From Candidatus Zixiibacteriota bacterium (GTDB taxonomy: Bacteria; Zixibacteria; MSB-5A5; GN15; FEB-12): 40,026 bases of DNA. The position numbers and the translations under genes are program-made. The number at the start of each line of letters is the position of its first letter. Positions within the stretch are counted from its first letter, which is position 1. Below are positions 1,895 to 22,584 of this stretch, one piece after another. The stretch is from NCBI GenBank assembly GCA_034439475.1, contig JAWXAN010000078.1:1-40026 (forward strand), read 5' to 3'. Below the pieces are notes generated by a model, which had not been told where the DNA came from, searched no databases, and saw only the letters and a list, made by a program, of their open reading frames with translations.

Positions 1895-3007
1895 ATGCCC
1901 ATAGTCGATAAAAATTCCACAAATCCCACTCTTGACTATCTGATAATTGAGCTGGCTGGAAAATATTCCCTTTCTCGTCTCTACGATGCCGGGCAGGATA
2001 TTTTCAAGGAGGGGGAGATTGGCAATACCATGCTCCTCGTGCTTCGAGGCATGGTCGAAGTTGTGAAACGAGGCAACGATGAGAGCGGATCACGGCGGGT
2101 TATCGCCCTTCGCGGTCCGGGCGACTTTTTGGGAGAAATGGTTCTTGTGGATGAGACCGAGAGATTCGCCACAGTCGTGGCGGCGACTGAGTGTGAAGTA
2201 CTGGAATTCTCACGCGCTAATTTCGAGCGGGTTATCAGCGAGCAACCCGCATTTGCGAGCCGTGTGCTTCGAAGTCTCAGCCGGAAGTTGCGCGAGTCCG
2301 ATTCATTTCGAATAGCGGAGCTCGAAGAGAGCAATCGCGTCCTCAATGCCACAAATGCGGAATTGCTGCACCTGAACTCATTTCTCGACCGGGTCATCGA
2401 TCAATCACCATCGGCGATTTTTGTCGCGACCCGGGCCGGCGATGTCTTCCGTATGAATCGGGCCGCAGCGCAGATTTTTGACATAGCTGGCGTAGAATCA
2501 GTACCGCGTATTTCCAAACTGATCTGTGATTTTGATAACTTGTGCCAACAGGGTGCTGATCAGAATAGCTGGCACGGGCAGGCTACCGGAATGAGGGGAA
2601 GTGACAGCTTTCCGATTTACCTCTCGATTTCATCACTATCTGGCCAATCGTCCGATCTCCTGAAACTCATTATATGCCAGGACATTTCGGAGTTACAACT
2701 GCTGAATCAGACTATTTGTGAGGTGGAGAGATACGAAAGTGCAAAAGAGACGGCCGTAGAGATGGCGCATGATATTAAGAATTACCTCGGCGTGTTGACA
2801 GGTAACGCCGAACTGATACTCTCGCGGTTTACACCCGACCAGCGGCATAATTTCTCCGAGTTGACTACCCTGATTTTATTAGCTGCCTTGTTTGCTGAAC
2901 ACTGGATACAGGATTTCATCAAAGGCCGATGGTTCAGCCACGCGCGTCCTGAACGTGGATACGTATCTGTGTATGTACGCCGCATGGTATCGTCTTTGCA
3001 AAGCTGA
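1895..3007 (+). CDS. Cyclic-nucleotide-binding / PAS sensor histidine kinase, truncated after the H box
   Basis: The N-terminus is a cyclic-nucleotide-binding (CAP_ED) domain, residues about 29-140, with a PGDFLGEMVL...R.ATVVA phosphate-binding-cassette-like signature. A short coiled coil (130-165) leads to a PAS domain (about 166-270) and a HisKA-type H box, EMAHDIKNYLGVLTGN, with H292 as the likely phospho-acceptor. After about residue 320 the sequence stops looking like a kinase, and no HATPase domain (N or G boxes) follows. A different frame from about 3001 to 3169 (KLNELQQPLRS... to a stop) looks like the continuation, so at least one frameshift and a deletion have occurred. Without an ATPase domain it cannot act as a kinase and is probably a decaying pseudogene. 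The start ATG has only a weak ribosome binding site. Confidence 0.7.
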   Translation: MPIVDKNSTNPTLDYLIIELAGKYSLSRLYDAGQDIFKEGEIGNTMLLVLRGMVEVVKRGNDESGSRRVIALRGPGDFLGEMVLVDETERFATVVAATECEVLEFSRANFERVISEQPAFASRVLRSLSRKLRESDSFRIAELEESNRVLNATNAELLHLNSFLDRVIDQSPSAIFVATRAGDVFRMNRAAAQIFDIAGVESVPRISKLICDFDNLCQQGADQNSWHGQATGMRGSDSFPIYLSISSLSGQSSDLLKLIICQDISELQLLNQTICEVERYESAKETAVEMAHDIKNYLGVLTGNAELILSRFTPDQRHNFSELTTLILLAALFAEHWIQDFIKGRWFSHARPERGYVSVYVRRMVSSLQS

Positions 3008-3169
3008 ACGAATTGCAGCAGCCTTTGCGGAGCACAAAGAACAGCGCGGGATTATTTTATCTAAACGAAATACTCAATGTTCTTGAACTTGTTGATATCG
3101 CCCCAATCATTAATAGAAAAGCGACTTTGCACATCGATAACTTTTCGAAGTACGGAGTATCGAGCTTAC
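3008..3169 (+). pseudogene. Out-of-frame continuation of the histidine kinase remnant
   Basis: In the frame offset from the upstream gene this stretch reads about 54 codons without a stop, with a hydrophobic/charged pattern (LFYLNEILNVLELV, then INRKATLHIDNF) resembling the linker between the dimerisation and ATPase domains of histidine kinases. It ends at a TAG near 3169, before any ATP-binding motif. This supports decay by frameshift plus loss of the 3' end. Weak on its own. Confidence 0.35.
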
Positions 3170-3233
3170 AAAAATAGCAACACCAACCATGCCGATATCT
3201 TATCGCCCGAGTGACGACAGTGAATGCACAGCC

Positions 3234-3271
3234 AAGCCTGGATTAGCGAGAATTCAGGCTTGTTTAATTTT
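3234..3271 (+). terminator. Probable terminator after the kinase remnant
   Basis: AAGCCTG (3234-3240) pairs with CAGGCTT (3255-3261) around a 14-base loop and is followed by GTTTAATTTT. The seven-pair stem is good but the T run is interrupted. Confidence 0.4.
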
Positions 3272-3331
3272 ACGTCGAAATCTGTGAATTTGACTCCTAA
3301 AGCTGTTTGGTGCAGAAAGTTACGAATTAGA

Positions 3332-3360
3332 TTGATTTCGGGGGGATGGTCTGCTATACT
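3332..3360 (+). promoter_or_regulatory. Promoter of tRNA-Asp
   Basis: TTGATT (3332-3337), 17 bases, then TATACT (3355-3360): a good sigma-70-type promoter about 27 bases before the tRNA 5' end. A GGGGGGA run lies in the spacer. Confidence 0.65.
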
Positions 3361-3386
3361 TGCGTTCCATATTTTTGTTTTATGCC

Positions 3387-3463
3387 GGGGTCGTAGTTCA
3401 GTTGGTTAGAACGCCTGCCTGTCACGCAGGAGGCCGCGAGTTCGAGTCTCGTCGACCCCGCCA
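3387..3463 (+). tRNA. tRNA-Asp (anticodon GTC)
   Basis: All arms fold. The acceptor GGGGTCG (3387-3393) pairs with CGACCCC (3453-3459). The anticodon stem CCTGC/GCAGG encloses loop CTGTCAC with anticodon GTC at 3421-3423. The T arm is GCGAG-TTCGAGT-CTCGT, with discriminator G and an encoded CCA. Its 3' half is the attachment site of the integrated element to the right: the serine recombinase reads into it on the opposite strand and stops opposite the anticodon loop. The tRNA stays intact because the element supplies or preserves the same 3' bases. Confidence 0.97.
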
Positions 3464-4894
3464 TTTTATATTTTCACCCTGTTTCGCAAGAATATCAAAC
3501 GGTGATTTGTAAGTCGGACAAACACTTCCACGATAAAATGTACAGTTCGATAGTACCGAATTGAGCAATCGACGCTGTTCCTTCACACCCTGTTTCAAGT
3601 ACTTGTCATACGCTGAATTAGCGAGTTCGAGAATGGACGAGCCAAATTCGTAATAATCCAAATTTGCATCGTTGAAAAGGCGAATCTGGTTTCTTACTGC
3701 CTCAAGATCAACTTGCCATGCGTGGCTTTTCCGGCGCCACATGTCCTCAGAAATCAAACCTTCGAGTTTGTCCTCATAACTCTTGTCAACAAGCCGCATG
3801 AGATGGCTCTCTCTCTTTTGCAGGCCAGTGAGCGACTCAGATCGGAACGAAATCATATCGGCTTGGCTCTCTCTGAGAGCTTGCTTAATATCTTCTACTT
3901 TGCCCACATCAATTGACATGGCCTGAACAGTTCCTGCGAGCATTAGGCCAAGTTCTTCTTCTCGAACCCAAATGTTATCACAATTGCCATGAAACTTGGT
4001 GCAATGATAATAGACGTATTTCCCTTTCTTGATCTCGGGGGTCATCGCGCATCCGCACTGGCCACACTTAACCAATCCGGTAAATGCGAATTCTCGTTTT
4101 GAACTAATCGGTTTGCTTTTACGGCCCAATACATTCTGCACCTTGTTGTACAATTGGAATGAAATGAGCGGCGTGTGAATGCCTTGGTAACGCTTTCCTT
4201 TCCAGTCAAATTCACCATAATAAATTGGATTCTTGAGAATTCTGTGGATGCCAGCCTTGTTGATGGTTATTGAATTTTGAGAAAATAGCCCCGATTCCTT
4301 CATCAATTTGGAGAGTGACTTCAGTGAATGATCTCCGGAGGCATACGCCTCGAACACTCTCGCAACCAAAGGCCCCTTTTCTGGATCGGCCTCGATTAAT
4401 CCAGTCCCAACCACGTTCCGATAACCCACAGGGGCTTTTGTCGGCCATTGTCCTTGAGCGCACTTTTCAAGAAACCCTTTTCTGACTTCCTCAGATAGAT
4501 TATCAGTATAGTTCTTGGCCATGAGCACTTTGATGCCATGCATGAGCTTTTCCGACGACCTTGACTCCTCGGAAATTACAACATTCTCTTTTACGAAATG
4601 TAACTTCAGTTTTCGCTCATCAAGGACTACCCAATCTTTGATGTTTCTATAAAGCCTGTCGGTCTTTTCAACCAGGACACTCTCAATCGACTGATCTTTT
4701 TTGACCAATTCCAGCATTTCGTTGAATCCAGTTCGACCAGCTTTTCGGGCAGTCTCTACATCCACAAACTCTTGCACAACCGTGATCGACTTATCCTTAG
4801 CGTATTGTCTGAGTAGCTTCAGCTGAGCAGGAATTGAAAAGCCGTCCTTCTCCTGTTCTTTTGAGGAAACCCGAGCGTATAAAACAGCTTTCAC
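3422..4894 (-). CDS. Large serine recombinase (integrase) ending inside tRNA-Asp
   Basis: Site-specific DNA recombinase that probably integrates and excises the element at tRNA-Asp. Residues 1-140 are the resolvase-like catalytic domain, with the nucleophilic serine in YARVSS (S10/S11) and the DRLYR motif (79-83). A recombinase domain follows (about 160-260), then a zinc ribbon (CGQCGCAM ... YYHC ... CDN, about 278-308) and a coiled-coil C-terminal region. The last residues, WRGRRDSNSRPPA, are the antisense translation of tRNA-Asp, and the TGA stop lies opposite the anticodon loop. Homologous tails at 24811 and 32489 encode WREL[R/Q]DEFI.W instead, so the present tail is an integration product. 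The gene starts with GTG overlapping the stop of the XRE gene (GTGA), with AGGAG about 10 bases upstream. At 490 residues it is a typical length. Confidence 0.95.
   Translation of the reverse strand: MKAVLYARVSSKEQEKDGFSIPAQLKLLRQYAKDKSITVVQEFVDVETARKAGRTGFNEMLELVKKDQSIESVLVEKTDRLYRNIKDWVVLDERKLKLHFVKENVVISEESRSSEKLMHGIKVLMAKNYTDNLSEEVRKGFLEKCAQGQWPTKAPVGYRNVVGTGLIEADPEKGPLVARVFEAYASGDHSLKSLSKLMKESGLFSQNSITINKAGIHRILKNPIYYGEFDWKGKRYQGIHTPLISFQLYNKVQNVLGRKSKPISSKREFAFTGLVKCGQCGCAMTPEIKKGKYVYYHCTKFHGNCDNIWVREEELGLMLAGTVQAMSIDVGKVEDIKQALRESQADMISFRSESLTGLQKRESHLMRLVDKSYEDKLEGLISEDMWRRKSHAWQVDLEAVRNQIRLFNDANLDYYEFGSSILELANSAYDKYLKQGVKEQRRLLNSVLSNCTFYRGSVCPTYKSPFDILAKQGENIKWRGRRDSNSRPPA
3457..3487. 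repeat. Left attachment site (attL) at the tRNA-Asp 3' end
   Basis: These 31 bases, starting CCCGCCATTTTATATTTTC, recur at 32536-32566 with a single mismatch (A3476 versus T). The left part is the tRNA 3' end including CCA; the right part is the serine recombinase 3' coding region. The first nine bases, CCCGCCATT, are also at 24858-24866. This pattern is what site-specific integration by the adjacent recombinase should leave. Confidence 0.8.
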
Positions 4895-5079
4895 TTCAAT
4901 TTTTCTCCTGATTTAAGCAATTTCTCAATGTGGAAGGCCTGAATTTTGTTAGGCCTCGCGTGATTGTTCAGCCACCGATTGACTGTTACCACTGACACAC
5001 CCAAGATTTCTCCCAACTGCGCCTGACTCAACCGGCGTTCCAGCCGGTATTCGTCAAGCTTCTCCATCATCCTTTTCAT
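4891..5079 (-). CDS. Small XRE-family helix-turn-helix regulator
   Basis: A DNA-binding protein of about 62 residues with an XRE/Cro-like fold: RRLSQAQLGEILGVS, then VVTVNRWLNNHARP as the recognition helix, giving the usual spacing. It sits between the tyrosine and serine recombinase genes and overlaps the latter's GTG start by four bases, so the two are translationally coupled. It probably controls excision or the recombinase operon, or acts as a directionality factor; that is inference. I chose the ATG at 5079 because the helix-turn-helix starts shortly after it. Longer starts (ATG 5109, TTG 5115) would overlap the recombinase end and add a hydrophobic stretch. Confidence 0.75.
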   Translation of the reverse strand: MKRMMEKLDEYRLERRLSQAQLGEILGVSVVTVNRWLNNHARPNKIQAFHIEKLLKSGEKLK

Positions 5080-5095
5080 ATAAAGTAATATAAAC

Positions 5096-6211
5096 TTAAG
5101 TAATGTCATCGTCAAGCTCTATTCCATCTCTATTGAGAAATTCGGTTATTGCTCTCAATGACACTCTTTGTCCCTGAGACCGAGCCGGTTTCCCAAAGTT
5201 AATCTCCCCGAGCACAGTCCTCATTCGGTCGTTTGGCAAAGTTCCATAGTTCATCAGAGTCGTCATCGGTTTAGAATGTCCAAGATTTTGACTGACAGCC
5301 TTGAACTCCTCAGGAGTTTGGCATCGCTCCATAGCCAAATGCACCGCCGCATGCCGGAAAGAATGCGGGTTGAAATAATCAAGACCGGCTTCCTGAGACC
5401 GCTTTTGGAGAATCTCACGTAGTCCACTCCCACTCTTCCAGAACTGGTCGCTTACTCCGACTTGAGCGAATGATAGCACGTTCTCTGCTTGCTCTATAAG
5501 AGTTTTAGGGAAGAGCGGGGCTGTATTTGGAAACAAGCGTTCCGATAAAAGATACCTGTACCAATCCAGTATCGGTAGCAGCATGCGTTCATCAAACACC
5601 ATCAGTTTTGACGGTATAGCCTTGCCGAATTTGGTTTTTACGCCTCGACGCGGGTCCTGGTCAATTCGGAGTGAGTGGGGGTCGAAACAGCCCATGGGAA
5701 GGCTAATAAGAGCACTGAAGCGCATCCCGGAGAGAAGCAGAAAGGCGATAATTGCCCTGTCCCGACGGGCAATCTCCGTATCACCGATTATCGAGTGAAC
5801 TAATTTCAAAACATACTCCAAACTCGGAAAAGGGCGATCCACGGGATTTAGCACTTCTTGGGTTTTACGCAGGTCAAGTGACAGATAAGAGACAGCGTCG
5901 AGCGATATTTTCTTCTTAAAACCCGGCTGTTCGGCAAGCCAAGAAAAGAACCGTTTGAGAATCCGGAGAGTGTGATAAGCTGTGTTTCCACTCAGAGACT
6001 TGGTCTCCCATGCTTGTTTTTCCAAATGCTTCTTGACGTCCATCGCTCGTCTTTGGTTGAAGTATGAGTAGTCCTCGCCTTCAAACAATTGTTCATAATG
6101 CTTCAATGCCCGGATCACCGTGAGCACCGTGCCTGCCGACATTCCTTGCGCGCCCACAAGATGGGTTCGGTACCTGCGTTTCAACTTCTCATTCTCATAG
6201 TTCGGCTTCAT
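5096..6211 (-). CDS. Tyrosine recombinase / phage-type integrase
   Basis: A 371-residue recombinase of the lambda-integrase superfamily. The SAM-like core-binding domain covers about 1-95 and the catalytic domain about 125-340. All key residues are visible: R164 (SGMRFSAL), a lysine-rich beta-hairpin near 192-197, H283 and R286 (HSFRHAAVH), H312 (LGHSK) and the nucleophile Y322 (MNYGTL). AAGGACG lies just upstream of the ATG, and the start overlaps the end of the HTH/zinc gene by 17 bases. A second recombinase of a different chemistry in the same operon as the serine integrase is unusual. It may assist excision or be the remains of a composite module. Confidence 0.92.
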   Translation of the reverse strand: MKPNYENEKLKRRYRTHLVGAQGMSAGTVLTVIRALKHYEQLFEGEDYSYFNQRRAMDVKKHLEKQAWETKSLSGNTAYHTLRILKRFFSWLAEQPGFKKKISLDAVSYLSLDLRKTQEVLNPVDRPFPSLEYVLKLVHSIIGDTEIARRDRAIIAFLLLSGMRFSALISLPMGCFDPHSLRIDQDPRRGVKTKFGKAIPSKLMVFDERMLLPILDWYRYLLSERLFPNTAPLFPKTLIEQAENVLSFAQVGVSDQFWKSGSGLREILQKRSQEAGLDYFNPHSFRHAAVHLAMERCQTPEEFKAVSQNLGHSKPMTTLMNYGTLPNDRMRTVLGEINFGKPARSQGQRVSLRAITEFLNRDGIELDDDIT

Positions 6212-6713
6212 GATTTACGTCCTTTCTAATTATGACATTTGAGGGGTGGTCTGAAGTCTCTACTAACCCTTCGTTGTGCGGAGTATGCGTCACACCTTCA
6301 AACTGGCCAAAAAAAGAGAACCGGCTGCCGAATCGGGCCAGTTCTTGGCCACAAATGCAGCACTTTGCGATGCGCCAGATACACTCCTCGCCATTGCCAA
6401 AAGTCTTTCCGGTATAGATATGATCGATAGTTCCATGAAGGGCGGTTCGAGCCGCCCGACACTTGACGCAGTAGAATTCATCCGGCTTGAGTGAAACTCG
6501 TTTATTTCGAATTCGGCAATTGAGGAACCTTTTCGCCTCACTTCCCATTATCAGGAGCGGCCAATCGGTCGCAGAAACTGGCTTCATTCCCTCTTTTTTC
6601 CACCGCTGAATGGTTCTGGGCGAGGTATTGAGTGCCGTAGCAAGCTCACTCATCGTATAGGACAAATCTGATCTAAGTTGCCGGTACAACCGACGCCAAT
6701 TATAGGTCGCCAT
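6195..6713 (-). CDS. HTH-domain protein with a zinc-cysteine module
   Basis: A 172-residue protein. The N-terminus (about 5-50) has a MerR/phage-terminase-like helix-turn-helix, YTMSELATALNTSPRTIQRWKKEG. It is followed by a region with paired cysteines, CVKC and later CCICG, likely a zinc-binding fold. The ATG at 6713 is chosen because a strong GGAGGG lies 6 bases upstream; the longer reading to 6788 would cover most of the small upstream gene. It sits directly before the tyrosine recombinase (17-base overlap), so a role in regulating or assisting recombination is likely. I do not recognise the family by name. Confidence 0.75.
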   Translation of the reverse strand: MATYNWRRLYRQLRSDLSYTMSELATALNTSPRTIQRWKKEGMKPVSATDWPLLIMGSEAKRFLNCRIRNKRVSLKPDEFYCVKCRAARTALHGTIDHIYTGKTFGNGEECIWRIAKCCICGQELARFGSRFSFFGQFEGVTHTPHNEGLVETSDHPSNVIIRKDVNHEAEL

Positions 6714-6879
6714 GATTGTCCCTCCATTCCCTGAGAATGCTGAAGTACCGGGCAAGGTTTGCACATGCTTGCCGATATTCCTCCTCACTCATTGACTGTC
6801 CGAGAAATGTGCGGGGTACCTTGTCGGTAAGTGATTCCAACGGCGATTCGAGTTCTGGGACTCGCGGTCGTTTAACCAT
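6700..6879 (-). CDS. Small 59-residue protein, first gene of the recombinase operon
   Basis: An ATG at 6879 with GGGAG 5-9 bases upstream opens 59 codons to a TAA at 6700-6702. The protein starts MVKRPRVPELESPL and has an amphipathic helix-rich C-terminus (SMSEEEYRQACANLARYFSI...). Its end overlaps the start of the HTH/zinc gene by 14 bases, and the strong GGAGGG of that gene lies inside this reading frame; both are signs of a real, translationally coupled gene. No family is recognised. It is likely a regulator or accessory protein of the recombinases. Confidence 0.6.
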   Translation of the reverse strand: MVKRPRVPELESPLESLTDKVPRTFLGQSMSEEEYRQACANLARYFSILREWRDNHGDL

Positions 6880-7139: not shown

Positions 7140-8984
7140 TTAGTCTTTTAGCGAATCGGGAAAATTGCGGTCGTAGAGTATTTTGAAGCGGCAGACAAAG
7201 CCGTCGGCGGTTGTCCATGGCAGGAATGGATCGTCGCGCAATCCAGTGAAGGCCCTTAGCCCGTTCCTGAGTCGCTGGAAGTCTTTCTGGTTCCAAGTGC
7301 GTGAGCGTTCTTTGGTGTCCCAATTCAAGCGTCCCTTCCCTTCGGCGAATTCCGTCAGCAAATCCCATAGCCTGTTGGGGAGTTTGGTTTTCATGTTCTC
7401 GAACCCCATTTCAAAGGCGGTATAAATTTCATACTTACCGTTCGAATAGACTTTTGCGGCATCTAATCCCACGATTTCAATTGTGATATCTTCCCACTTT
7501 GTGCCCTCAGGAAGATTCAGACGCTTGCCAGCCGATTCCCTCTTTTTTGTCACAAATGTCCCCGTAATCATGCTAAGCAGTGAGTCTACAGGAACATCGC
7601 CTCCGGCAATTAGACCCTTATGAAGCGATACAAACTTTTCCAGTACTTCGCACACCTGATGACCATGGTGCTTATGGAGCTCATACAGCCGAGTAGCGTT
7701 CTCCGCGGTCTTCCCATCGAGCGATGTTACAATAGTTGAGATGAGACCGCTATGCTCCTCGTAAAAGGCGGTCTCGCTGTTTTGCTGGTAGTCCCGTCCA
7801 GCCTTAATAATCAGTTCCACCATAGCGCGACCGTCTCCTTTTGTGACAGGATCCAACGGCATTTTGATTTTGTACATCTCTTCCGGGTCTTCATCCTCCA
7901 AGCAGTTTTGGATAATAGCCAATCGTCTTCCGATGCATTGAGAGCAGACCCCGCAATGTGTGTTTATCGTATCACCCGACCGAATATGACTACAACTTGC
8001 CGTAAAGCGAATTAAGCTTTGCCCGCCATGAACCTTGATAGCACGGACAACATCCGCCTTTGTGTGCCAAAAGAATGGATTATGGACTCCGAAATTAATC
8101 CCAAACAAAGCCGAATAAAACTTGGATAGTCCTTTCAGAGCTTTCGGATGCGTGGTTCGGCTTGCTCTTGAACCCAGAAGCGAAGGCGCAATCTTTAGAT
8201 TCGAGCTGGTTATCCCATTCTCGTAAAAGCTGATGTCCGACAGTTGGCTCATTCGAGCGACCACCGCCGCCAGCGAAGCATATAGAAACGACCGAGTTCG
8301 CTGGTGGGTATCTTTGGTGATCTTTTCCTGCTTGTTTACCCAGACCGGAATGTGGAGCAGTCGGCTTTCGCTTCCAGTAAGGTCCTGAAAGTCCTTCAAC
8401 AATGTCCGCTGGAGCTTGTCGGTCTGCGGAGCCGAGCGGTGGCTCAACAACACTATCTTGCCTTTTCTCGTTTTGACAGCCTCGCACAGACCCGCGAGCG
8501 AATCCAAGCCGCCCGAAAAAAGCATCACTTCGTCTGGCCGAAACCATGGTTGCCCTTCCTCAAATTCAAAATACTCCTCGAATTTGTGCTCCTTTTTGAT
8601 TGGACGGAAAATAAACGAATAGTAGTCGCCAGAGAGAAACTCCAGAGCTTCAGTCAGAGCATTACTTACAGTTTCAGACTTCCAAACTGTGAGATTCCGC
8701 ACTGGAATGTGGAATCTCAGCTCCCTTTTCCAATTGGCTCCGTCGGCGGGAAGTGTATTTCCTCCCCGTGTGGCCGCCTGATCCCCTGAGTAGACATAGC
8801 CCGCTATCTCAAGCAGGTCTAAAAGCAGGGGAGGAGGATTCTGAACTAATTTACGGCTTATGTTTGAAATTTTTAGATGAACATTGTTTGATCCGGGTAT
8901 CGCATTGAGCAATATAACGTTTTCGCCCAACTTGCTTCTTGGCGGACGATCGGGCCCGCACCAGATATCAATTGGTCCAGCCAT
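7140..8984 (-). CDS. QueC-like (7-cyano-7-deazaguanine synthase-like) defence-associated protein
   Basis: A 614-residue protein built around a QueC-type ATP-pyrophosphatase. The PP-loop is SGGLDS (157-162). The zinc site is C331, C344, C347 and C350 (SCSHIR...THCGVCSQC), matching the four-cysteine arrangement of QueC, which makes preQ0 from CDG with ATP. QueC is only about 230 residues; here a 150-residue N-terminal extension and a 250-residue C-terminal extension are added, as in QatC of the Qat anti-phage system and related defence proteins. No folE, queD, queE or tgt is nearby, so ordinary queuosine synthesis is unlikely. It is the last gene of a tight operon, 4 bases after the MGH gene, whose product is the likely partner or substrate. 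The role in defence is inference from context. Confidence 0.85.
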   Translation of the reverse strand: MAGPIDIWCGPDRPPRSKLGENVILLNAIPGSNNVHLKISNISRKLVQNPPPLLLDLLEIAGYVYSGDQAATRGGNTLPADGANWKRELRFHIPVRNLTVWKSETVSNALTEALEFLSGDYYSFIFRPIKKEHKFEEYFEFEEGQPWFRPDEVMLFSGGLDSLAGLCEAVKTRKGKIVLLSHRSAPQTDKLQRTLLKDFQDLTGSESRLLHIPVWVNKQEKITKDTHQRTRSFLYASLAAVVARMSQLSDISFYENGITSSNLKIAPSLLGSRASRTTHPKALKGLSKFYSALFGINFGVHNPFFWHTKADVVRAIKVHGGQSLIRFTASCSHIRSGDTINTHCGVCSQCIGRRLAIIQNCLEDEDPEEMYKIKMPLDPVTKGDGRAMVELIIKAGRDYQQNSETAFYEEHSGLISTIVTSLDGKTAENATRLYELHKHHGHQVCEVLEKFVSLHKGLIAGGDVPVDSLLSMITGTFVTKKRESAGKRLNLPEGTKWEDITIEIVGLDAAKVYSNGKYEIYTAFEMGFENMKTKLPNRLWDLLTEFAEGKGRLNWDTKERSRTWNQKDFQRLRNGLRAFTGLRDDPFLPWTTADGFVCRFKILYDRNFPDSLKD

Positions 8985-8988
8985 TGGC

Positions 8989-9756
8989 CTATACGCTCCG
9001 CCTGAACTCAGATCGAATCTTCTTGAACGCTATATGGGCAAATTGAGAAACATCCTTGTGTGAAAGTCTGCCTTCCCATCGCGCCTTGCCAAACCAACCC
9101 GGAGTAAACTCATCGGCGATTCGTACCGTTTGCCGAACATGAAGATCAAATGCCCTACTGAAATCAGAGTGTTCCTTAATGTTGGCAAAGGCTTTCCCGT
9201 GGCCGACATGATAGGGAAGCTCCCGTCCGAGGTAATAGTTCAAATAATGTGATGTAAACGATGCGAAAAATTCATGCATTGTATGGCCGAGCATCGAAGA
9301 CTTGAGATTCGCCTGAAGCGCTTGTCTGGCTTGAGCCGGATCAAAGCCAAAGAGAGTCTGTGAGGCTGAGGCCGTCTGATTGACCAGAACCTTGGTGAAG
9401 CTGTCCTGGGCTATTTCGGCGATGTCAGACCGAGCACGGGCCTTGGCTGCGGCTGCAGTGGCCTTCTCTTTGAAGGCATTGACATAATCAAAAAGCGAGG
9501 GACTGGATGGCAGTGAGAAACCTGCAGTGCGAAGCGACGCATCCGGGCTTTTGGATTGGAGAGCGTCGATAAATCCGAAAATAGTGGTCAGAGTCTCAGT
9601 GAATCCGATATCCTGAGGCACACGCCCAAGTCCGGTATATGCCGCCCAGTAAGTTTCGTGCGCGAGTTCTTCTGCTGTTGCTCCATCAGCGAGCAACTCG
9701 ATGACCCTCTTCCACCGGTGAGTGCGAGGTAGTCGGCTGAGTCTTAGGTGTCCCAT
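8989..9756 (-). CDS. Uncharacterised helical protein with N-terminal MGHLRL, partner of the QueC-like enzyme
   Basis: A 255-residue, mostly helical protein I cannot place in a named family. It has no signal peptide or membrane helix. The N-terminus MGHLRLSRLPRTHRW is notable: Met removal would expose Gly, and the same first six residues, at exact DNA identity over 17 bases, begin a truncated gene at 14033. Residues 85-135 are Ala-rich and helical. The C-terminus (about 165-255) carries several His and aromatic residues (HEFFASFTSHYLNYYLG, then YHVGHGKAF). It lies 12 bases after the PLD gene and 4 bases before the QueC-like gene. QueC-like enzymes of Qat and type IV CBASS act with a small partner protein; this protein occupies that position. 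Its function is unknown. Confidence 0.75.
   Translation of the reverse strand: MGHLRLSRLPRTHRWKRVIELLADGATAEELAHETYWAAYTGLGRVPQDIGFTETLTTIFGFIDALQSKSPDASLRTAGFSLPSSPSLFDYVNAFKEKATAAAAKARARSDIAEIAQDSFTKVLVNQTASASQTLFGFDPAQARQALQANLKSSMLGHTMHEFFASFTSHYLNYYLGRELPYHVGHGKAFANIKEHSDFSRAFDLHVRQTVRIADEFTPGWFGKARWEGRLSHKDVSQFAHIAFKKIRSEFRRSV
9740..9756. repeat. 17-bp direct repeat, copy 1 (MGHLRL start)
   Basis: AGTCTTAGGTGTCCCAT is identical to 14017-14033. On the minus strand it is ATGGGACACCTAAGACT, the first codons of the MGH gene. The match stops abruptly on both sides. Confidence 0.9.
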
Positions 9757-9768
9757 AAGTGACCAGCT

Positions 9769-11046
9769 CTATTGCAGTTGACTTACTTTGAATCCGAAGT
9801 AGTGAAGCACTTTCGTGGTTCTGCCATTAACCACGGGTATGTCTTGCCCGTTTATCCACCCAACCAATTCCTGAACACACGAACGCCCAAAATGAGCCAA
9901 TTTCCAATCAGAATTGTAGATCAGATTGCCCATTCTAACGTGTGCAGCGTCTTTTCCGTGAACCAAGTATGCCAAGTTATGACGAAGACGTTTGGCCTCG
10001 TTGTCTTCAAAGAAAACCTTTTGCAAAGTCGGCTCACCACCTTTGTGATATCGGCGTGTTTCAAGAAAGGCATGCACACTGCGTAACGCACTAAACAACT
10101 CAGAGTCCGTACTTTTTAGGATATTATCTTTGGTTTCCATTACCTTCAGAATTTGCGGATAACTGATTGGTATGAGAACATCGTCAAAGTACTTCCAGCC
10201 CTTATCGAGCCACTCTTTAGCTAACGCCGTAATTTGATTAGTTCGCTCACTCTTAGAATTAGCAATCGGATCCCTCCACTTGTCTCCGCCCGCCCGAGCT
10301 TCTCTAATCCAGCTAATGAACCCGTCGATTTCAAGACGTTCCGGCAATGCCTTCTCGTCAACTTTTCGTCTGTCAAGCGAGCGATAGGCATCTCTGATCT
10401 CGAAAATTGCATTGACACATTCTTGGAAGGATTTCCGGTAGCTTTCCTGAAATGCAGACGCTTCATCAATCTTCTTCCGCTCGCGAGTAATATTGCCCGG
10501 CGCTACACTCTTAAACTTCGCTATTACACTTGCATCAAAATCGCCTACCTCTTCGACCGCTTTTCGATACGATTCATACAACTGTCTATATTGCTGCATG
10601 CTTTGCAAATCGAGAACCGCGGCCTGAGTCCAAAAATCATTAAATAGGCTTGCCAGGTCGTCAAATCTCGAATCTGAGGAATCTACGGTGATGAGAATCT
10701 CCTGATTGGTGTTCAGAGCACTACTCGTCAAATTAGCCGAGCCCACCAGCGCAACATCACTCCCAAAAATGTAGAGCTTAGGATGAAAAGAGTGATGCGA
10801 GAAGTACCTTGCCTCGACACCCTCTATTTTCATAAGTTCGCCCAGAGCTTTGGGACTTGTAGGGAATCCCAGCCTTATAATGAGCCTGACCTTACAGCCT
10901 TGATCAACCAAATACTGTATAAAAGAAACATCTGTGAAGAATGCGACTGCGATGAAAACGTCCCGAGGCTCTCGTCCGTATTTTTTCAAACCATTTTCAA
11001 CAAAGTCACTTCGACTATTGGTATTAGTGAATAACTCGGGTTTCAT
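9769..11046 (-). CDS. Phospholipase-D-family (HKD) protein, probable nuclease
   Basis: A 425-residue protein whose first 125 residues form one PLD half-site: FHPKLYIFG with H88 and K90, followed by VGSANLTSSAL (GSANLT at 102-107), the HxK...GSxN signature. A single half-site usually acts as a homodimer. The remaining 300 residues are helical and charged and unknown to me. PLD-type domains in defence loci (for example DISARM DrmC, or N-terminal domains on SNF2 proteins) are usually nucleases. The start overlaps the HEPN gene's stop by four bases (ATGA), so the two are translationally coupled. The MGH gene follows after 12 bases. Confidence 0.82.
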   Translation of the reverse strand: MKPELFTNTNSRSDFVENGLKKYGREPRDVFIAVAFFTDVSFIQYLVDQGCKVRLIIRLGFPTSPKALGELMKIEGVEARYFSHHSFHPKLYIFGSDVALVGSANLTSSALNTNQEILITVDSSDSRFDDLASLFNDFWTQAAVLDLQSMQQYRQLYESYRKAVEEVGDFDASVIAKFKSVAPGNITRERKKIDEASAFQESYRKSFQECVNAIFEIRDAYRSLDRRKVDEKALPERLEIDGFISWIREARAGGDKWRDPIANSKSERTNQITALAKEWLDKGWKYFDDVLIPISYPQILKVMETKDNILKSTDSELFSALRSVHAFLETRRYHKGGEPTLQKVFFEDNEAKRLRHNLAYLVHGKDAAHVRMGNLIYNSDWKLAHFGRSCVQELVGWINGQDIPVVNGRTTKVLHYFGFKVSQLQ

Positions 11047-12491
11047 GTTTCCTCACTCTTATCGGCTGGCCTTCCATTCCACAACCATTCATTCCAATCC
11101 GGTTTCTTATACTGCGAATTCAAATGTAGGATTTTTTTTGCGATTCGACGTCCATACTCTTCAAGACGAGGCATAATGTCAATATCCGTTTTCTTTATCT
11201 CGCTACCGTGTACGATTTTGCTTCTGATTCCATAGGCCCGTTTGAAGAACTCATCGACGCTTTTTCGTTCTTCGGGTGACTCCCCGATTAGCAATGCGGC
11301 TCGAATTCCTAATCTAAAACTTAATCCTTCCCCGCCACCTTCGTTAAGTAATAGAGCCTCGAATCCCATGAAATAGTCTAAAACCCTGTCCTGCCAGTCT
11401 GGGCCGGAACACGCTCGACTGATTCTGCGAAAGCCTATTGTTGAAGCGTGATCCTTCGATTCTTCACTGCCGATTAATTGATTAAAGAGTAATATAATTT
11501 CTTTAGCATCGGTCTTATGTATCCGATATAGAGTGCCACCACGAGCGTACAATCCCTCCGGAGGCGCGGACATCCAGGGGGACTTACCCAGGTCCTTCGT
11601 TTCTTCAATTGTCGCCCCCAACCGGACATTTCCATCCTTCAATAATCTCAAACTATCTACAGCAGCTCTAAAGTGCTCCATCGCCCTCGACATTAAACTC
11701 TCGTGCTTAGGAGCTTGCAACGCTGACATGTTGATCTCGTCTCCACCCAGCCTCGGCAATGTTTCGCGATACTGTAACAGAGTCTGAATCACATACGCTT
11801 CTGGCGGCACCTCACTTATCCCAAACCAATGGTGCAATGGATATTGATAAAGTAAGATGGGGTTATCATTTAGAAAATTCACTAACATTTCAGGAGTCAA
11901 CATCTTTACATGGAAGTTGGGTAGAAGCTCAATTTGCTCCAATTCACAGCTGCAATTTTCAGCGATGGCCGAGATTACGACCTCGACTGAAGTGGTTTTA
12001 AGCGATTCCGTCGATTTGAAAAGGACAGACTCAAAGTGATTTTCGTTGTATGTTAGGTAATGATCGTTGCATGTGAAGTACTGAGCGAGTAGTTCTTTCC
12101 AAAATTGAAAGAATGTGAGTCTGATTGCACTATTGCAGGTTCCGAACATTTTGTCGATATGGGGAGCAAGGAGTTTGTCACATTTAGCGGCTGTCTCCGT
12201 TGCGCGCCTAAGTTTGACCCCTTGTTCATCCATTGTAATGTATTCGTAGGCCCAAGAGACGTCAAAGATACGCTGATCAAATAATTGAAGGCGTTTATCT
12301 TCTCGCAGCCTTACCTTGCTATACGACCCCCAATTCATTTTGCCCGCTTCGTCTACTTTGTTTAGGAACGACAGGGAATTGACAAGCAAATTTCTAAGTA
12401 GGTTGACGAGGTCATGACTCAGATCCAATTCGCTGGATTGATTTGAAATAGATCCGGCTGACTGAGACTTTTTCTTAATTGGCTTTTCCAT
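11043..12491 (-). CDS. HEPN-domain protein (ApeA-like), first gene of the QueC-like cluster
   Basis: A 482-residue protein. The C-terminal 150 residues look like an Apea-like HEPN domain: the region DRVLDYFMGFEALLLNEGG, then SFRLGIRAALLIG, and the RNase motif RSKIVHG (R423, H428; R-X4-H). HEPN proteins of this type are typically metal-independent RNases used in abortive infection. The N-terminal 330 residues are unassigned and may sense a trigger. The ATG at 12491 has no clear Shine-Dalgarno sequence; a 209-base gap separates it from the membrane-protein genes, so a promoter probably lies there. Domain assignment is by motif only; the toxin role is inferred. Confidence 0.75.
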   Translation of the reverse strand: MEKPIKKKSQSAGSISNQSSELDLSHDLVNLLRNLLVNSLSFLNKVDEAGKMNWGSYSKVRLREDKRLQLFDQRIFDVSWAYEYITMDEQGVKLRRATETAAKCDKLLAPHIDKMFGTCNSAIRLTFFQFWKELLAQYFTCNDHYLTYNENHFESVLFKSTESLKTTSVEVVISAIAENCSCELEQIELLPNFHVKMLTPEMLVNFLNDNPILLYQYPLHHWFGISEVPPEAYVIQTLLQYRETLPRLGGDEINMSALQAPKHESLMSRAMEHFRAAVDSLRLLKDGNVRLGATIEETKDLGKSPWMSAPPEGLYARGGTLYRIHKTDAKEIILLFNQLIGSEESKDHASTIGFRRISRACSGPDWQDRVLDYFMGFEALLLNEGGGEGLSFRLGIRAALLIGESPEERKSVDEFFKRAYGIRSKIVHGSEIKKTDIDIMPRLEEYGRRIAKKILHLNSQYKKPDWNEWLWNGRPADKSEET

Positions 12492-12700
12492 TTAAACTAA
12501 TCAATAAGCGCCTAATCGCGTACTAAACCTACGAAATCTAAAGTGTTCGACTCGGGAATGAAACAATATTTTGAAGTCCACGCAAGGCACGGGGCAGTAA
12601 AGGGCCATGAACTCTGGTCAGAGTAGCCATTGTAACACCAGAATTGACACTGGATGCTCCTTTCGAGCATGGAAAGATCCGCCTCGCTCGATTTTGATTG
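12492..12700. other. Gap between the membrane-protein pair and the HEPN cluster
   Basis: A 209-base intergenic stretch. ATGCTC (12654-12659) and GAGCAT (12665-12670) form a small hairpin without a T run, possibly at the 3' end of the membrane-protein transcript. The HEPN promoter is expected near 12500-12560 (minus strand) but no consensus boxes stand out. Confidence 0.35.
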
Positions 12701-13261
12701 TCACCAATCTCTCTCACCCAATGCAGAATCCCTGAGTTTCTTTCCAAAATAGAAAGGCAGCCCCAAGCCGAGGATGATCGCAATCACTCCAATCACCACT
12801 ACCCAGCAGGCGTCGCTATAGAGCGCTGGCGCAGACAGTGTTACAAAGGCGCTGGATCCCAGAAAAGCAAAATAGAATGTTTTAATGATATCGGGAGGCA
12901 ATAGCCACAACCCGTAACGATCCGCGAAGGCCCTTGACGTCCTTGGCCAGGAATCAAGGATGAAACCCGTCATTCCAAGTCGTACTTCAATTTTAGCCAA
13001 CTGCAGGGTAATGTATCTGGAGTTATAACCCAGAGCAAGCGTGTACGCAGTCCCTATTAACAATAAGACAATCACACCCGACGAACCAACCTGAAATACT
13101 TTGGAAGTAACATCCTCCTTGATAAGCCAGATATAGCCGCCAAGTGCAGGGGTCAGTATTGCGACATACTTGATTACTTCCTGTTCACGTTGCCTTAATG
13201 CCGCAAGTAAAACTTGGTGAAATTCCGCCGCTGTCTGTGTTGCTCTTTCCTCAGGCGTCAT
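12701..13261 (-). CDS. Four-helix membrane protein, second of an overlapping pair
   Basis: A 186-residue protein with two pairs of hydrophobic segments. After the N-terminal helix MTPEERATQTAAEFHQVLL, segments fall near residues 30-48 and 58-78, then, after a soluble stretch of about 50 residues, near 128-148 and 152-172. The start codon at 13261 overlaps the stop of the upstream membrane gene (ATGA), which is why I prefer it to a longer reading to 13300. Two adjacent 4TM proteins inside a defence island suggest membrane effectors or an effector/regulator pair, comparable to SLATT or Pycsar TM proteins, but I cannot name a family. Confidence 0.72.
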   Translation of the reverse strand: MTPEERATQTAAEFHQVLLAALRQREQEVIKYVAILTPALGGYIWLIKEDVTSKVFQVGSSGVIVLLLIGTAYTLALGYNSRYITLQLAKIEVRLGMTGFILDSWPRTSRAFADRYGLWLLPPDIIKTFYFAFLGSSAFVTLSAPALYSDACWVVVIGVIAIILGLGLPFYFGKKLRDSALGERDW

Positions 13262-13932
13262 TCGATATTCCCTTCTTTGGCATTCGGTTCCTCGATCCAC
13301 TTTTTCAGGTCATTACGGATATCACGCTTACTCTGCTCGAATGGGTATGCCTGCATATTCTTAGCCACTAAGAATATGCACAGGAAAAGGCCTAATGCAA
13401 TTAGCACTATCACAACAATCTTCTCGGTTACCAACATCTGACTGCAACAGATATAGTGCAGAAAGATCATAACCAACCAACCGATTGCGATTCCCACTGA
13501 AAAAAGGCAAATTCGTAGCAACCACGACGCACGCTTCTTGGCGGTGTGGGACTGATCTGCGGAAGCATATACCTCACTCAGCAACTCGATTTGAAATTCG
13601 GATTTATCAAGAGTAGCAGTTAGCTTTTCCTTGTCAATCCAAGGCACCTGGATAGACCGTGAGGCGAATGTGGCAAACATTGCCAGCGAAGGAAGCACCA
13701 GAAGCAGGAATGGAATCAGGTACGCTAAAGAAAGTGTTGTTAGTTCTGTCTTGAAAAGCTCCAGAAAAGCAACAATAAATAGTGTGTTGATTGCCAGAAA
13801 CAGGGCTAACGTGTTTTCAACCTTCATTCGCCCCGAGACTACAAATTCAAACATTGCCCAGATAGGTTGAGATGCCTGTTCGAGTTGCTTCGATTTTTCC
13901 TCTTTAGAGTCCACGTCTGTAATCCTTATCAC
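13258..13932 (-). CDS. Four-helix membrane protein, first of an overlapping pair
   Basis: A 224-residue protein with a charged cytosolic-like N-terminus, two hydrophobic segments near 40-60 and 68-90 (NTLALFLAINTLFIVAF, then LIPFLLLVLPSLAMF), a linker of about 50 residues, and two more near 143-163 and 170-195, ending in a charged tail. The two-plus-two layout with a helical linker resembles SLATT- and PycTM-like effector domains, though I see no decisive signature. It overlaps the next gene by four bases and lies 5 bases after the truncated MGH reading frame. Confidence 0.72.
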   Translation of the reverse strand: MIRITDVDSKEEKSKQLEQASQPIWAMFEFVVSGRMKVENTLALFLAINTLFIVAFLELFKTELTTLSLAYLIPFLLLVLPSLAMFATFASRSIQVPWIDKEKLTATLDKSEFQIELLSEVYASADQSHTAKKRASWLLRICLFSVGIAIGWLVMIFLHYICCSQMLVTEKIVVIVLIALGLFLCIFLVAKNMQAYPFEQSKRDIRNDLKKWIEEPNAKEGNIE

Positions 13933-13937
13933 TTCAC

Positions 13938-14033
13938 TTATTCAATTCTCGTTTTTTCGCAGTTTACGCCCGCTACTTCCTTCCTCTGGCCCCGAAGGTG
14001 TCGAATAGTAATGCCAAGTCTTAGGTGTCCCAT
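13938..14033 (-). pseudogene. Truncated MGHLRL gene (5' remnant)
   Basis: One base after the nuclease stop codon, an ATG opens 31 codons starting MGHLRLG, then unrelated-looking sequence, to a TAA at 13938. The first 17 bases are identical to the start of the MGH gene at 9756. This looks like the 5' end of a second MGH gene cut by a rearrangement; downstream sequence shows at most faint similarity to the intact gene. Confidence 0.6.
14017..14033. repeat. 17-bp direct repeat, copy 2 (MGHLRL start)
   Basis: Identical to 9740-9756, in the same orientation. Deleting the DNA between the two copies would place the intact MGH gene one base after the nuclease stop codon. Confidence 0.9.
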
Positions 14034-14034
14034 T

Positions 14035-14850
14035 TCACACCCCACCTTCGAGCGGGCTTACGTCCCCGCATTCCAATTCTCCTCCATTTCGGACAAGAAA
14101 ATATACTTTGCAGGTGCCTTCAATCGACGTGACGATGGCTTTCATTTCGGCTTCTGTTAGAAGTTCTGCGGCATCAGTGATGACTCTCAGGACTGTATAT
14201 CTCTTCCGTTTGCAGATTTCGTCGCACTGTGTGTCCCGGAGCTTCTGAGTCAGAAAATCTGCTTCAGTGGGATGAAACCTTAGCACGCGCCTGTAGTGCT
14301 GCGCCCCATCAACCTGAATGACTAACTTCTTGGAATTGATTACAATGTCTGGTTTAAACTTTGTGTCAGGGAACTTCTTATTTTCCAAAATGGTAGTATT
14401 TAGATAACATTGTCGCACCAAATCTTTGACCAACTCCTCTCGCTTCCACAGCTGAGTATCTTCCCCCTGATCGATTGCCGCCACACAATCTTGCCAATAC
14501 TCGATAATGGCACTAAGGGCTCCACTCGTCTCGAGACTCTGCCGATCTGAAATTTTAAATCCCGTCCAACCGGTTCCCTTTTCGGGTATTATTTTAAACG
14601 ATCGAGCAACGCCTTGCTTAAGTCTCTTTGGTAACCAAAAGTAGACCTTAATGCCTCCACGTTTTCTCAGATCAAACGAAAGGCGTCTCATGTTCCGGTA
14701 TTTCAGGTAGACGCTCGGTACACTTTGAGGAAGACGCTTGTTAATATCCTGGTATTTAGCACACGACAACTTGCCCTTGATATACTTCACCATCTTCATC
14801 GTTTCGGAGTAATCCACGCCTACAATGCTTCGAACTGTTTGATAATTCAC
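14035..14850 (-). CDS. PD-(D/E)XK-like nuclease (DUF559/Vsr-like C-terminus)
   Basis: A 271-residue protein. The C-terminal half carries a Vsr/DUF559-style core: FKPDIVI (D168), a strand KKLVIQVDGAQHY (Q179-V180-D181), then a helix with D206/D210 and the strand RYTVLRV. In this group the second motif is normally E-V-D-G; here the Glu is Gln, which could lower activity or shift the active site. The N-terminal half is unknown and probably binds DNA or the partner. It lies 99 bases after the methylase gene and before the truncated MGH start, so it is likely part of the methylase/helicase module. Nuclease function is inferred from motif spacing. Confidence 0.65.
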   Translation of the reverse strand: MNYQTVRSIVGVDYSETMKMVKYIKGKLSCAKYQDINKRLPQSVPSVYLKYRNMRRLSFDLRKRGGIKVYFWLPKRLKQGVARSFKIIPEKGTGWTGFKISDRQSLETSGALSAIIEYWQDCVAAIDQGEDTQLWKREELVKDLVRQCYLNTTILENKKFPDTKFKPDIVINSKKLVIQVDGAQHYRRVLRFHPTEADFLTQKLRDTQCDEICKRKRYTVLRVITDAAELLTEAEMKAIVTSIEGTCKVYFLVRNGGELECGDVSPLEGGV

Positions 14851-14949
14851 TTGTCTCCCAGTCTCTCTTTTCTTCCTATGTGAGCCCAGTACTCAACGAA
14901 GTTTATCCGCTCTTCATCGTAAGGAAGCCGCCCCCGCTTGAGATAATGA

Positions 14950-17900
14950 CTATTTAGCACTGGCTGCTTGTCTCTTTGCAACCCAATCCGTTAACTCACG
15001 CCCATCGTACTTGCGGGTTTGGTTTCCCTCACGGATATAAACTTCTTTGTCAAAGTGGATGATCTCCTCTGAGCGGCGAACGGTCACTTCACACACTGTT
15101 CCTTCGGGAAGGTCTTGAAGGACAATATCCAATTGGGCGGCTGGGGACGGGTCAAGTCGGCTGTTTATAAGGTTGCGAAGTTTCAGTTGAAAGCCGTCTT
15201 TGTTCTGATTGCGTCCGCATAGTTTGAAATCTTTTTCCAGTCCCACTATAGTTCCGGCATCGGCCACACCAATTAGAAGTGTGCCCCCGTCGGCATTGGC
15301 GAATGCGCAGATCGTTTTCAGAACCTGTGCGGGTAGGGATGGCAGACTAAGACCGGTCGTGGTGTCAGCCTCCAATGTCGCTTTGAATTCCAAATGCTGG
15401 CCTTCTCCATTGGCGATAAGGGTGAGTATCGGGTGAGACTTCCAGTATTTGGGTGGTTTGGAGAGCACCGATTCGCAATGGGCAAGATAGTCGGCGTACT
15501 TCGTCTTGACTTCGGCGGTGAAGCCTTGCGCTTCGGCAAGCTTGCGATAACGGCGGCAGTACCAAAGTTCGATTTCTCGGATGTCTTCGACACGCAGACC
15601 AAACAACTCATAGATAATACGGTCGATTTGCTTTTGTTCAAAAAACTGGTACGAATATGTTTGATTCTGTTTCTGCTTGACGACAATGTCCATTACAAGC
15701 GAACGGAGTTCCGTCGCAGCAGTATCGGGAATTACGGGGAATCTAAATTCCTTGATGTCATCTCCGCTGGTATCCACAGAGTGCTTCACAAAGACTTTGA
15801 ATTGATACCTCGCAACCATTGAACAAAGGAGGCCCAAAAGTAATTCCTGATGATAGTGGTCTGAAAAGATGCCTGAACCCTTTGCTTCAAAGATAGCACC
15901 GCTATTTATCCTAAATGTGGGCGCGTAAATACCAGAAACAGAGAAGGATAAGCCAGCTTTGAAAAAATATTCTTGATTGAACCAGCGATGTCCGGGATTA
16001 TTCCTCATATCTTGGAGGGCTCCTCTAGCCCAATTGATGAAGTAGGGTGTTGGGACATAGTAATTCGGGAGCCAACCCTCTTCTGTGTCACTCGCCCCAC
16101 CCTTCTCAAACGGGACAAAGCAACCTGTCAGTGATGTCCAGTCTTTGTCGACGCCCGTGGTTTTTTCAATAGGGCTCAATGCCACCATTTCTTCTTCGGG
16201 CATTACCATGAAATCGTCTATAGGATCGTAAGAAGAATCGGCGCCGAGTCGGACTCGAACATACTTTTTATTATCCCCTGTCGAAATGCCGTGAACCACA
16301 TCGGCCACATCACCCAGCCTCGTAAAATTAGAATCGGTCAACAATTTCTGTAATGAAGGCAATCCGATAAAAAAGGAGTAATGGTCGTACGCGGCGATCT
16401 GGTCTTGACAATACGTGTACCGGGCATAGGTTAAAGTCTGGGCATCGAATCCGTGAGAGGCGACGGCGAGCAGGTTTGTATTGAGCAACGCATTGTCGTC
16501 AGATGGGATAGCCCGCAAATCGCCAGCAATAAGACTGTGATTCTCGTCAGGTGGTTTGTTGGTCAATGTAAGGATGCAGGTATCGACCGTCGCGTCGAAC
16601 ACCCAAGATGGAAGATCAAGCAAGTGATGGACCGAAGTCCGGCGGAGCAACAGTGTTCGCAGTGGTCGATGGCTTTTGATAGTTCGCCAGGTGTTTGAAA
16701 TGATAAAACTAAACTGACCACCTGGCCGAAGCAGTTGTAACGCTCTGGCCATAAAGATGCCATAGGTATCTTTGGATTGGCTACCGTCAGTGTTCCCGGG
16801 AAAATAGCGCTCGCGAAGGGAATTTTCTACTTTTACACCATAGGGCGGATTGGCAATGGCAATATCGAATCCGCCCGGCGCGGTTGGTGGGGCAAGTTGG
16901 TGTCCGGGATTCAGTTCTCCGGCAATCGTACTTTCAGCCGCACGAGGGAGGAAGACTTCTGCAAAATCAACAACCCAGTTAAACACTCCCATTGGAGCAG
17001 TGGCGTGGATTCTACGCTCCAAGTCCTTTTGTATCCTATGAATACTGGAACGAATGTCCTCTTTTCTCGTCGGATCGGTTTGTTGAGCATACTCGAGTTT
17101 TAACACTCTGATCTGTTCGATAAGTGTACTATCAAAAAGGTCGTACGGAAAATCTACTGGACTAGCAGCAGAAAGGCTGTCTCCGACGCCGACTTTGAAA
17201 TCTAGATTTGGTAGTGGCTCAGGGTCGTCACCTTTGAAATCGACTGCAAGTGAAAGCCATAATCGAAGACATGCAGTATTTACTGCGAAAGCCTCAAGAT
17301 CGACGCCATAAAGATTGTTCTGAATAATGTTCAGTTTGAGACGATAGTCATCATGAGCGGTTGTTGGCTCCGCCCTATTTTCCAGGAGACGGTGAATAAT
17401 TACCAATTCACTCAGCATTCCTACTAGATACGCCCCGCTACCGCAGGCTGGATCGACAATCCGTACGTCCCTAATAAGCTGTAAAAGGCTTTGCGCTTCT
17501 CTAAGAGACAAATTCTCGTTCGAATGGTTGTCGACAAGCTCTTCATGCCCTCCAAGATACTTTTTGAGAGTTTCTTTGCACATGAAGGCTACTATGTTTC
17601 TCGGAGTGTAGTAAGCGCCCTTGCCTCGACGATCTTCTCTCGTGACAAGACGTTCGAAGACCTTACCTAACATCTCTGGATCAACGGCGACCTGAATATT
17701 AAGAGGAGTAGACTCCTCAACGGTGAAGTTGAATCGGTAGAACAGCCCGACCGCTGAGATGATTGGGGCTAGTACTCGATCTGGGATGTCGTTTATCAGG
17801 TTGTCTTCTGGAGTACGTTCAAACAGACCGCCATTCAGATATTTGACGTGTCCAATTCTCTCATCATCCTGATGGCCGGGTTTTGCAAGCGCAGTAAAGA

Positions 17901-22555: not shown

Positions 22556-22584
22556 TTGACACTGCAACGAAAATTAGGTATTTT
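22556..22584 (+). promoter_or_regulatory. Promoter of the AbiE-like pair
   Basis: A perfect TTGACA (22556-22561), 17 bases, then TATTTT (22579-22584). The start codon at 22595 is only 10 bases past the -10 box, so the transcript would be leaderless or nearly so, consistent with the absence of a Shine-Dalgarno sequence. Confidence 0.55.

Follow-up and report, generated by a model that had tools for sequence, protein, structure and literature searches.

In type IV cyclic oligonucleotide-based antiphage signalling systems (CBASS), a QueC-family enzyme, Cap9, is paired with a CD-NTase that starts with Met-Gly, and the glycine after the methionine is the modified residue. A QueC-family protein, QatC, is also part of qatABCD, where its gene adjoins that of QatB and is accompanied by genes for QatA and QatD. 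For this system, PMC13279940 reports that QatBC alone protects against lambda-vir, i.e. that the pair suffices without QatA and QatD for some phages, and that Gly2 of QatB and the active site of QatC are essential. In the QatC cluster described in PMC13329287, qatA lies beside the gene in 34.3% and qatD in 33.6% of cases, and about two thirds have no Pfam-detected qatA or qatD. Here, we describe a relative of this pair in a 40,026-nucleotide stretch of DNA (hereafter the window) from a Candidatus Zixiibacteriota bacterium (assembly GCA_034439475.1, contig JAWXAN010000078.1, positions 1 to 40,026 of the forward strand). With a probability of roughly 70%, the locus is a stand-alone, autonomous two-gene variant of Qat, referred to here as MGH-type QatBC, situated on a mobile defence island.

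With the QatB-QatC core of qatABCD (PMC13279940) the locus shares the QatC fold with both of its extensions, the catalytic and zinc-binding residues, the helical fold of QatB, the adjacent B-C gene order, and an N-terminal Met-Gly in QatB that is soon followed by Pro and Trp. However, qatABCD has QatA and QatD, neither of which was found at 70 loci of the MGH type, and therefore MGH-type QatBC does not fall within the strict definition of that system. Moreover, MGH-type QatC is about 150 aa longer and ends in a variable C-terminal domain, and the MGH-type pair is found mostly on IMG/VR contigs in our sample, unlike qatABCD. Type IV CBASS is similar in that a QueC-family enzyme has a protein partner starting with Met-Gly, but that partner is a CD-NTase whereas the partner here is QatB-like, and the window enzyme is far larger and has lost the Tyr/Asp pair that binds 7-carboxy-7-deazaguanine (CDG). 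An earlier note, made from the letters of the window, had already remarked on the absence of QatA, TatD, CD-NTase, TGT and OGG, and indeed none of these is named among the scanned window genes (up to 35712). More specifically, neither Pfam nor PADLOC names a CD-NTase among window genes 7140-21918, and the AbiEii protein at 23214-24230 is a nucleotidyltransferase toxin.

The cluster in question consists of four open reading frames (ORFs) on the minus strand, encoding a candidate HEPN RNase (482 aa, 11043-12491), a PLD-like protein (425 aa, 9769-11046), a QatB-like protein (255 aa, 8989-9756) and a QatC-like protein (614 aa, 7140-8984). The coordinates, sizes, overlap (4 bases) and gaps (12 and 4 bases) that the earlier note gave are correct, and its motifs were located: HPK at residue 88 and GSAN at residue 102 of the PLD protein, RSKIVH at residue 423 of the HEPN candidate and SGGLDS at residue 157 of the QueC-like protein.

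The 614-aa protein is a QatC with both extensions of the QatC fold, plus an extra C-terminal domain. It matches QatC in PADLOC (E 6.2e-49) and the solved QatC chains in a sequence search of the PDB (E 3.6e-25 and 1.4e-24), and its NCBIfam QatC score of 187.6 bits lies under the curated cut-off of 280. In its structural model (predicted local distance difference test, pLDDT, 90.0), residues 3-475 align with the solved QatC 9y01_B at Z 34.3 (410 residues, 3.0 Å), the next fold matches being QueC and Cap9 structures at Z 13-14; we regard residues 1-475 as the QatC core. The previous label, QueC-like, was right as to the family (Pfam QueC, E 4.3e-7), while it missed both the identity with QatC and the additional domain.

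Conservation was assessed in an alignment (A4) of the window protein with 55 of 59 QatC relatives (L086, L091, L127 and L128 were excluded). Near-copies more than 92% alike had been removed before alignment, reducing QatB from 61 to 57 and QatC from 61 to 59 sequences, and a QatB/QatC pair from Leptospira (see below) is present in alignments A1 and A2 and absent from A3 and A4. All 56 sequences keep S157, G158, G159, D161 and S162 of the SGGLDS pyrophosphate-binding motif (residues 157-162; 8499-8516, minus strand), the zinc-ligand cysteines C331, C344, C347 and C350 (7935-7994, minus strand), and R229, R231 and H279-P280. Position 275 is S/T in 56/56 and position 277 is T/S in 55/56 (S275 and T277 in the window), and by our own alignment these two correspond to the threonines that, according to PMC13279940, stand in QatC in place of the CDG-binding Tyr/Asp. 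In a tree, a branch supported at 99/93 separates the MGH-type QatC sequences (59 rows) from 11 other QatC, three of the latter having very long branches.

The core fold, the SGGxDS motif and the four cysteines are shared with QueC, and on the strength of fold and motif the protein could be imagined simply to make 7-cyano-7-deazaguanine (preQ0) or a related base. We rejected this role as hardly credible. At other sites the host genome encodes a complete QueC-family protein (245.5 bits) and one of the QueD family, the CDG-binding Tyr/Asp have given way to S/T and T, just as they have in QatC, and QatC is reported not to complement queC (PMC13329287). The window enzyme further differs from QueC in its lost substrate motif, its large extensions and its protein partner. 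With these QueC- and QueD-family genes in the host, CDG, the substrate in CBASS, could be available in the cell.

The 255-aa protein, listed as unknown in the earlier note, is instead best taken as a divergent QatB, on the combined basis of its modelled fold, its gene order and a rule concerning its second residue. The model (pLDDT 89.2) matches the solved QatB 9y01_A at Z 12.1 (204 of 215 residues, 4.5 Å) and 9y02_A at Z 11.6, with the next fold match at 5.0. The N-terminus of the protein is MGHLRLSRLPRTHRW, and its first 15 residues (9712-9756, minus strand) hold the conserved pattern Met-Gly-His ... Leu-Pro ... Trp, which is the predicted substrate of QatC. In order to read the start of other family members, a scan was run that skipped the first 14 columns of the QatB alignment, and the upstream DNA was then inspected; QatB cores were present in 70 of 85 loci, a set that excludes L027-L033 (contigs repeated from L015-L020 and L023) and L038-L041 (from an earlier viral scan). 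The Met-Gly-His opening proved to be the signature of the family: wherever the start could be read (66 loci), Gly directly follows the start codon, and the third residue is His in 63, Asn in two and Thr in one. Of the remaining four, alignment failed at the start of one, and three have no nearby start codon (L089, L094 and L037); L089 begins at a contig edge and reads GHVRLG, and L094 has a broken frame. In alignment A3, whose rows were cut to begin at this start, G2 is invariant in part for that reason. The QatB of qatABCD, in contrast, starts with Gly-Thr-Ser and bears a long disordered tail, 65 residues in the P. aeruginosa protein (PMC13279940), whereas the MGH-type protein starts with Gly-His and has no such tail; no MG[TGS]S start was found upstream of QatB in 67/67 loci. 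In 26 of these 67 there is another start codon upstream, which makes the short tail less certain there.

Several observations weigh against this identification and against the reading built on it. QatB was missing from the top 50 Foldseek matches and appeared only after 1000 candidates had been re-aligned, and, for helical models, a Z of about 13 can arise from common arrangement. A profile comparison with hhalign links the family to canonical QatB (11 sequences, one of which, L133, does not have MGTS) with only 20% local and 9% global probability; NCBIfam gave no match for the window QatB, and the PADLOC matches of 58 members include no QatB family. The long disordered tail is missing, helix 1 of the model starting at residue 13, and L037 has no in-frame Met-Gly start. 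A sequence search of the PDB with the window QatB likewise found no match. Sequence profiles alone are thus inconclusive, and it is the fold match, the gene order and the Gly2 rule taken together that lead us to call the protein QatB.

The conserved unit is two genes, QatB-QatC; the earlier note was right that the QueC-like protein and its small neighbour go together and are related to Qat. The QatC query found matches in 12 of 132 Zixiibacteriota genomes, of which eight are near full-length and two partial (G070 and G071); G111 has fragments, and the G012 match is limited to the C-terminal domain, carried by a different protein. With QatB, 11 of these genomes were matched, ten by full-length copies and G042 by a 29-residue fragment, and all ten full-length copies adjoin QatC or its start; the QatC frame is cut to 182 aa in locus L022 and the contig ends in L023. 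L023 also encodes a Cas9-like protein (HNH_4, RuvC_III; 2020-5190), some 700 bases upstream of its QatB-like gene. A scan of genome contigs with a single QatC sequence found no relative, and one with the QatB alignment found 11 loci. Searching IMG/VR with the QatC alignment recovered 70 loci, 61 of them, by our reading, with MGH-type QatC (five in short or split frames); QatB lies upstream in 57 of these 61 and the remaining four begin at QatC. The other nine loci hold other QueC-family proteins, with an MGTS-type protein upstream in six of seven inspected.

Neighbouring genes were surveyed (BLAST, E 1e-4) at 70 QatB-bearing loci, 55 from IMG/VR and 15 from elsewhere, on stretches of 3.2-20.8 kb, a length that would let very divergent or more distant genes escape. 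Neither QatA (KAP-type NTPase; four queries) nor QatD (TatD-type nuclease; three queries) was near QatB in any of the 70. The next ORF upstream of QatB (67 loci) is on the opposite strand in 34, on the same strand but more than 40 bases away in 23, on the same strand within 40 bases in eight, and absent in two. A promoter scan was uninformative (6 sites vs 7.5 expected).

This survey bears directly on the proposal of the earlier note that HEPN RNase and PLD nuclease are effectors of a four-gene system, which would make them local recruits standing in for QatA and QatD. Both are plausible types of effector, and their common strand and tight spacing give HEPN-PLD-QatB-QatC the look of one operon, a point that counts against the two-gene interpretation. 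However, HEPN was near QatB in 1/70 loci and a PLD of the window type in 1/70, in both cases the window itself (a second PLD match, in L017, is a PLD-helicase), so that four-gene adjacency occurs at a single locus. Moreover, some phages are reportedly stopped by QatBC even when QatA and QatD are missing (PMC13279940). By the rule that the note itself had set, that the claim falls if the genes are rarely neighbours elsewhere, the proposal fails on adjacency, and a four-gene system is improbable.

Considered separately, the two neighbours lead lives of their own. The PLD domain proposed for the 425-aa protein was confirmed (Pfam PLDc_2, E 2.5e-13), and its family is found on 125 plasmid records, 120 of them covering at least 80% of the query, with a best identity of 42.6%. 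Six plasmid neighbourhoods out of six have neither HEPN nor a Qat gene within 5-6 kb of the PLD relative, and HEPN itself has no match on plasmids. Relatives of the HEPN candidate exist in 8/132 Zixiibacteriota genomes, the window included, and no PLD or Qat gene was detected (E 1e-3) near any of the seven others; a match to QatC in one of these loci (L068, E 0.009) was discounted. One genome, G095, has a HEPN relative on one contig and QatBC on another. As for the HEPN label, R423, S424 and H428 of the R-x4-H motif are invariant across the window protein and its seven relatives, whereas Pfam HEPN models match one of the eight aligned sequences (E 0.0063) and not that of the window; with this motif and one weak match, the identity is plausible, not proven. 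Single-sequence scans of viral contigs with HEPN and PLD, which reach close relatives only, gave no match, and HEPN is mentioned in the main text of neither PMC13279940 nor PMC13329287. In locus L069 (9187-13731) a HEPN relative directly adjoins a relative of the window methyltransferase (E 3e-17), and HEPN may thus belong with the methyltransferase rather than with QatBC, the window copies being about 2.5 kb apart. We judge HEPN and PLD to be separately mobile cargo, co-directional with QatBC by chance here.

The end of QatC varies across the family, the 56 aligned sequences having 116-266 residues beyond residue 475. In the window copy, the extra domain spans residues ~485-614 (about 130 aa; 7143-7532, minus strand) and has no Pfam match; the order of its elements in the model (three strands, helix, helix, hairpin) suggests a winged-helix-like fold. 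A sister island has the same domain in a 603-aa protein encoded at the equivalent position (E 1.9e-9). Among phage QatC it is present in L073, the only one of 49 phage C-terminal domains (a number that includes the cell-genome relative L034) with a sequence link to that of Zixiibacteriota. Pfam Trans_reg_C, the ending seen in some phages, is matched at the C-terminus in 6/56 sequences (best 1e-9); a regular expression for endings of this kind hit 17/56 C-termini, compared with 2.25% of shuffles, and only the Pfam count is relied upon. The QatC from Leptospira has a DpnII-MboI domain at residues 511-615 (E 1.2e-9). This pair, MGH-type QatB and QatC with its fused DpnII/MboI-type domain, is located on a Leptospira noguchii plasmid (L001 8114-10758), and both proteins are annotated as hypothetical. 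We infer that the variable C-terminal domain probably recognises or attacks nucleic acid.

IMG/VR contigs account for 55 of the 70 QatB-bearing loci, a viral share that reflects which collection met which query. Among these 55, a serine recombinase is present in 35 (before QatB in 24, after it in 11), a primase-like gene in 26 and both in 17, and ten representative neighbours matched PHROGs families (serine integrase, primase, helicase, SSB, Sak4, RusA, ParB-methyltransferase and others). Named phage records gave no match to the QatB of a viral relative and, for QatC, partial matches in two Listeria phage records; the association with phages therefore rests on the IMG/VR contigs. Such a setting, together with the Trans_reg_C domains, would suit a pair that serves its carrier phages, either in superinfection exclusion or in gene control through the C-terminal DNA-binding domain, and that was acquired by islands later. 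We consider this possible but doubtful, given that restriction, methyltransferase or Cas9 genes were named (by Pfam or BLAST) at seven of the ten Zixiibacteriota loci whose QatB is full-length, and that the domain fused to the Leptospira QatC is of the restriction-endonuclease type. Superinfection exclusion, for its part, would be identical chemistry for a different owner.

In the window, as with some other Zixiibacteriota copies, QatBC sits on a recombinase-bearing island. Downstream of QatC, all on the minus strand, are the genes for a helix-turn-helix (HTH) protein of the recombinase module (6195-6788; homologues near QatBC in 6/70 loci including the window, all Zixiibacteriota), a tyrosine recombinase (5096-6211; homologues in 6/70 loci including the window) and a serine recombinase (3422-4894; Pfam Resolvase and Recombinase), serine recombinases being present in 41/70 loci. 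A 53-nt direct repeat has its left copy, a candidate attachment (att) site, at 3457-3509 (plus strand), at the 3' end of tRNA-Asp (3387-3463), and its right copy, 85% identical, at 32536-32588 (plus strand), a candidate for the far end. The pair fits an island of about 29 kb, and since both copies, by our reading, can encode a serine recombinase end, the right one could instead be a relic of a second element.

Upstream of the four genes, the window holds a PglX/type IIG-like methyltransferase with a Schlafen AlbA domain (14950-18618) and, adjoining it, a PLD-SNF2 helicase (18766-21918; best PADLOC match C3a139, HKD+Snf2). Relatives of both occur near QatBC in L017 and L019, and it might be supposed that QatBC is a module of a larger restriction system together with them. 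This is very unlikely, as the methyltransferase is found in 3/70 and the PLD-helicase in 4/70 loci, on the opposite strand in L017, and as other loci have different companions: type I restriction in L016 and L020, another methyltransferase in L018 and Cas9 in L023. In sister loci that share the HTH protein and the tyrosine recombinase, L016 and L020 have type I restriction as further cargo, and L017 and L019 a methyltransferase together with the PLD-helicase.

Other features of the window include two small proteins, overlapping each other, that contain hydrophobic stretches and match no family above the cut-off (12701-13932), which lie between HEPN and a gene with weak DUF559/Vsr-like matches (14035-14850). 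Within the putative island there is also a toxin-antitoxin pair of AbiEi-like (DUF6088) and AbiEii proteins (22517-24230, plus strand), an isolated HsdR-like C-terminal fragment (T1RH-like_C; 25061-25468), probably a remnant of type I restriction, and an RND efflux set (OEP, HlyD, AcrB; 26122-32379) between the putative att copies, which may be island cargo. A 264-nt direct repeat, 84% identical (36160-36423 and 39171-39434), lies outside it.

Regarding function, the conserved features fit the chemistry of published QatBC, the differences being that the tail is shorter and that an accessory domain is fused to QatC. Modification of the QatB N-terminus by QatC is the most likely step, at slightly better than even odds, and the modified QatB, or the QatBC complex, would then block phage growth, with the variable C-terminal domain of QatC possibly acting in place of separate QatA and QatD genes. 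Both the modification chemistry and protection against phage would carry over by analogy; set against this, the reaction of QatC was not reconstituted by the authors of PMC13279940, and no published protection data were found for MGH-type QatBC. More tentatively, MGH-type QatBC could be a phage-borne, autonomous immunity based on N-terminal protein modification, in which a swappable DNA-binding or nuclease domain on QatC replaces QatA/QatD and couples glycine modification to the recognition or cleavage of invading DNA. As QatC without qatA or qatD has already been described (PMC13329287), what is new here is the MGH family, i.e. its N-terminus, short tail, fused domains and occurrence on phage contigs; a literature search covering titles and the beginnings of abstracts found no MGH-type, phage-borne QatBC family.

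For QatC biochemistry, this natural pair offers a simpler substrate: it has just two genes, its QatB tail is very short, and its divergent members run to dozens. The requirements of the reaction can be read from the Gly-His end and from the unvarying active site of QatC. The domain fused to the end of QatC, which changes between members, is a handle on how QatBC stops phage, and the presence of the pair on contigs of uncultivated phages suggests that phages may use QatBC chemistry against their competitors.

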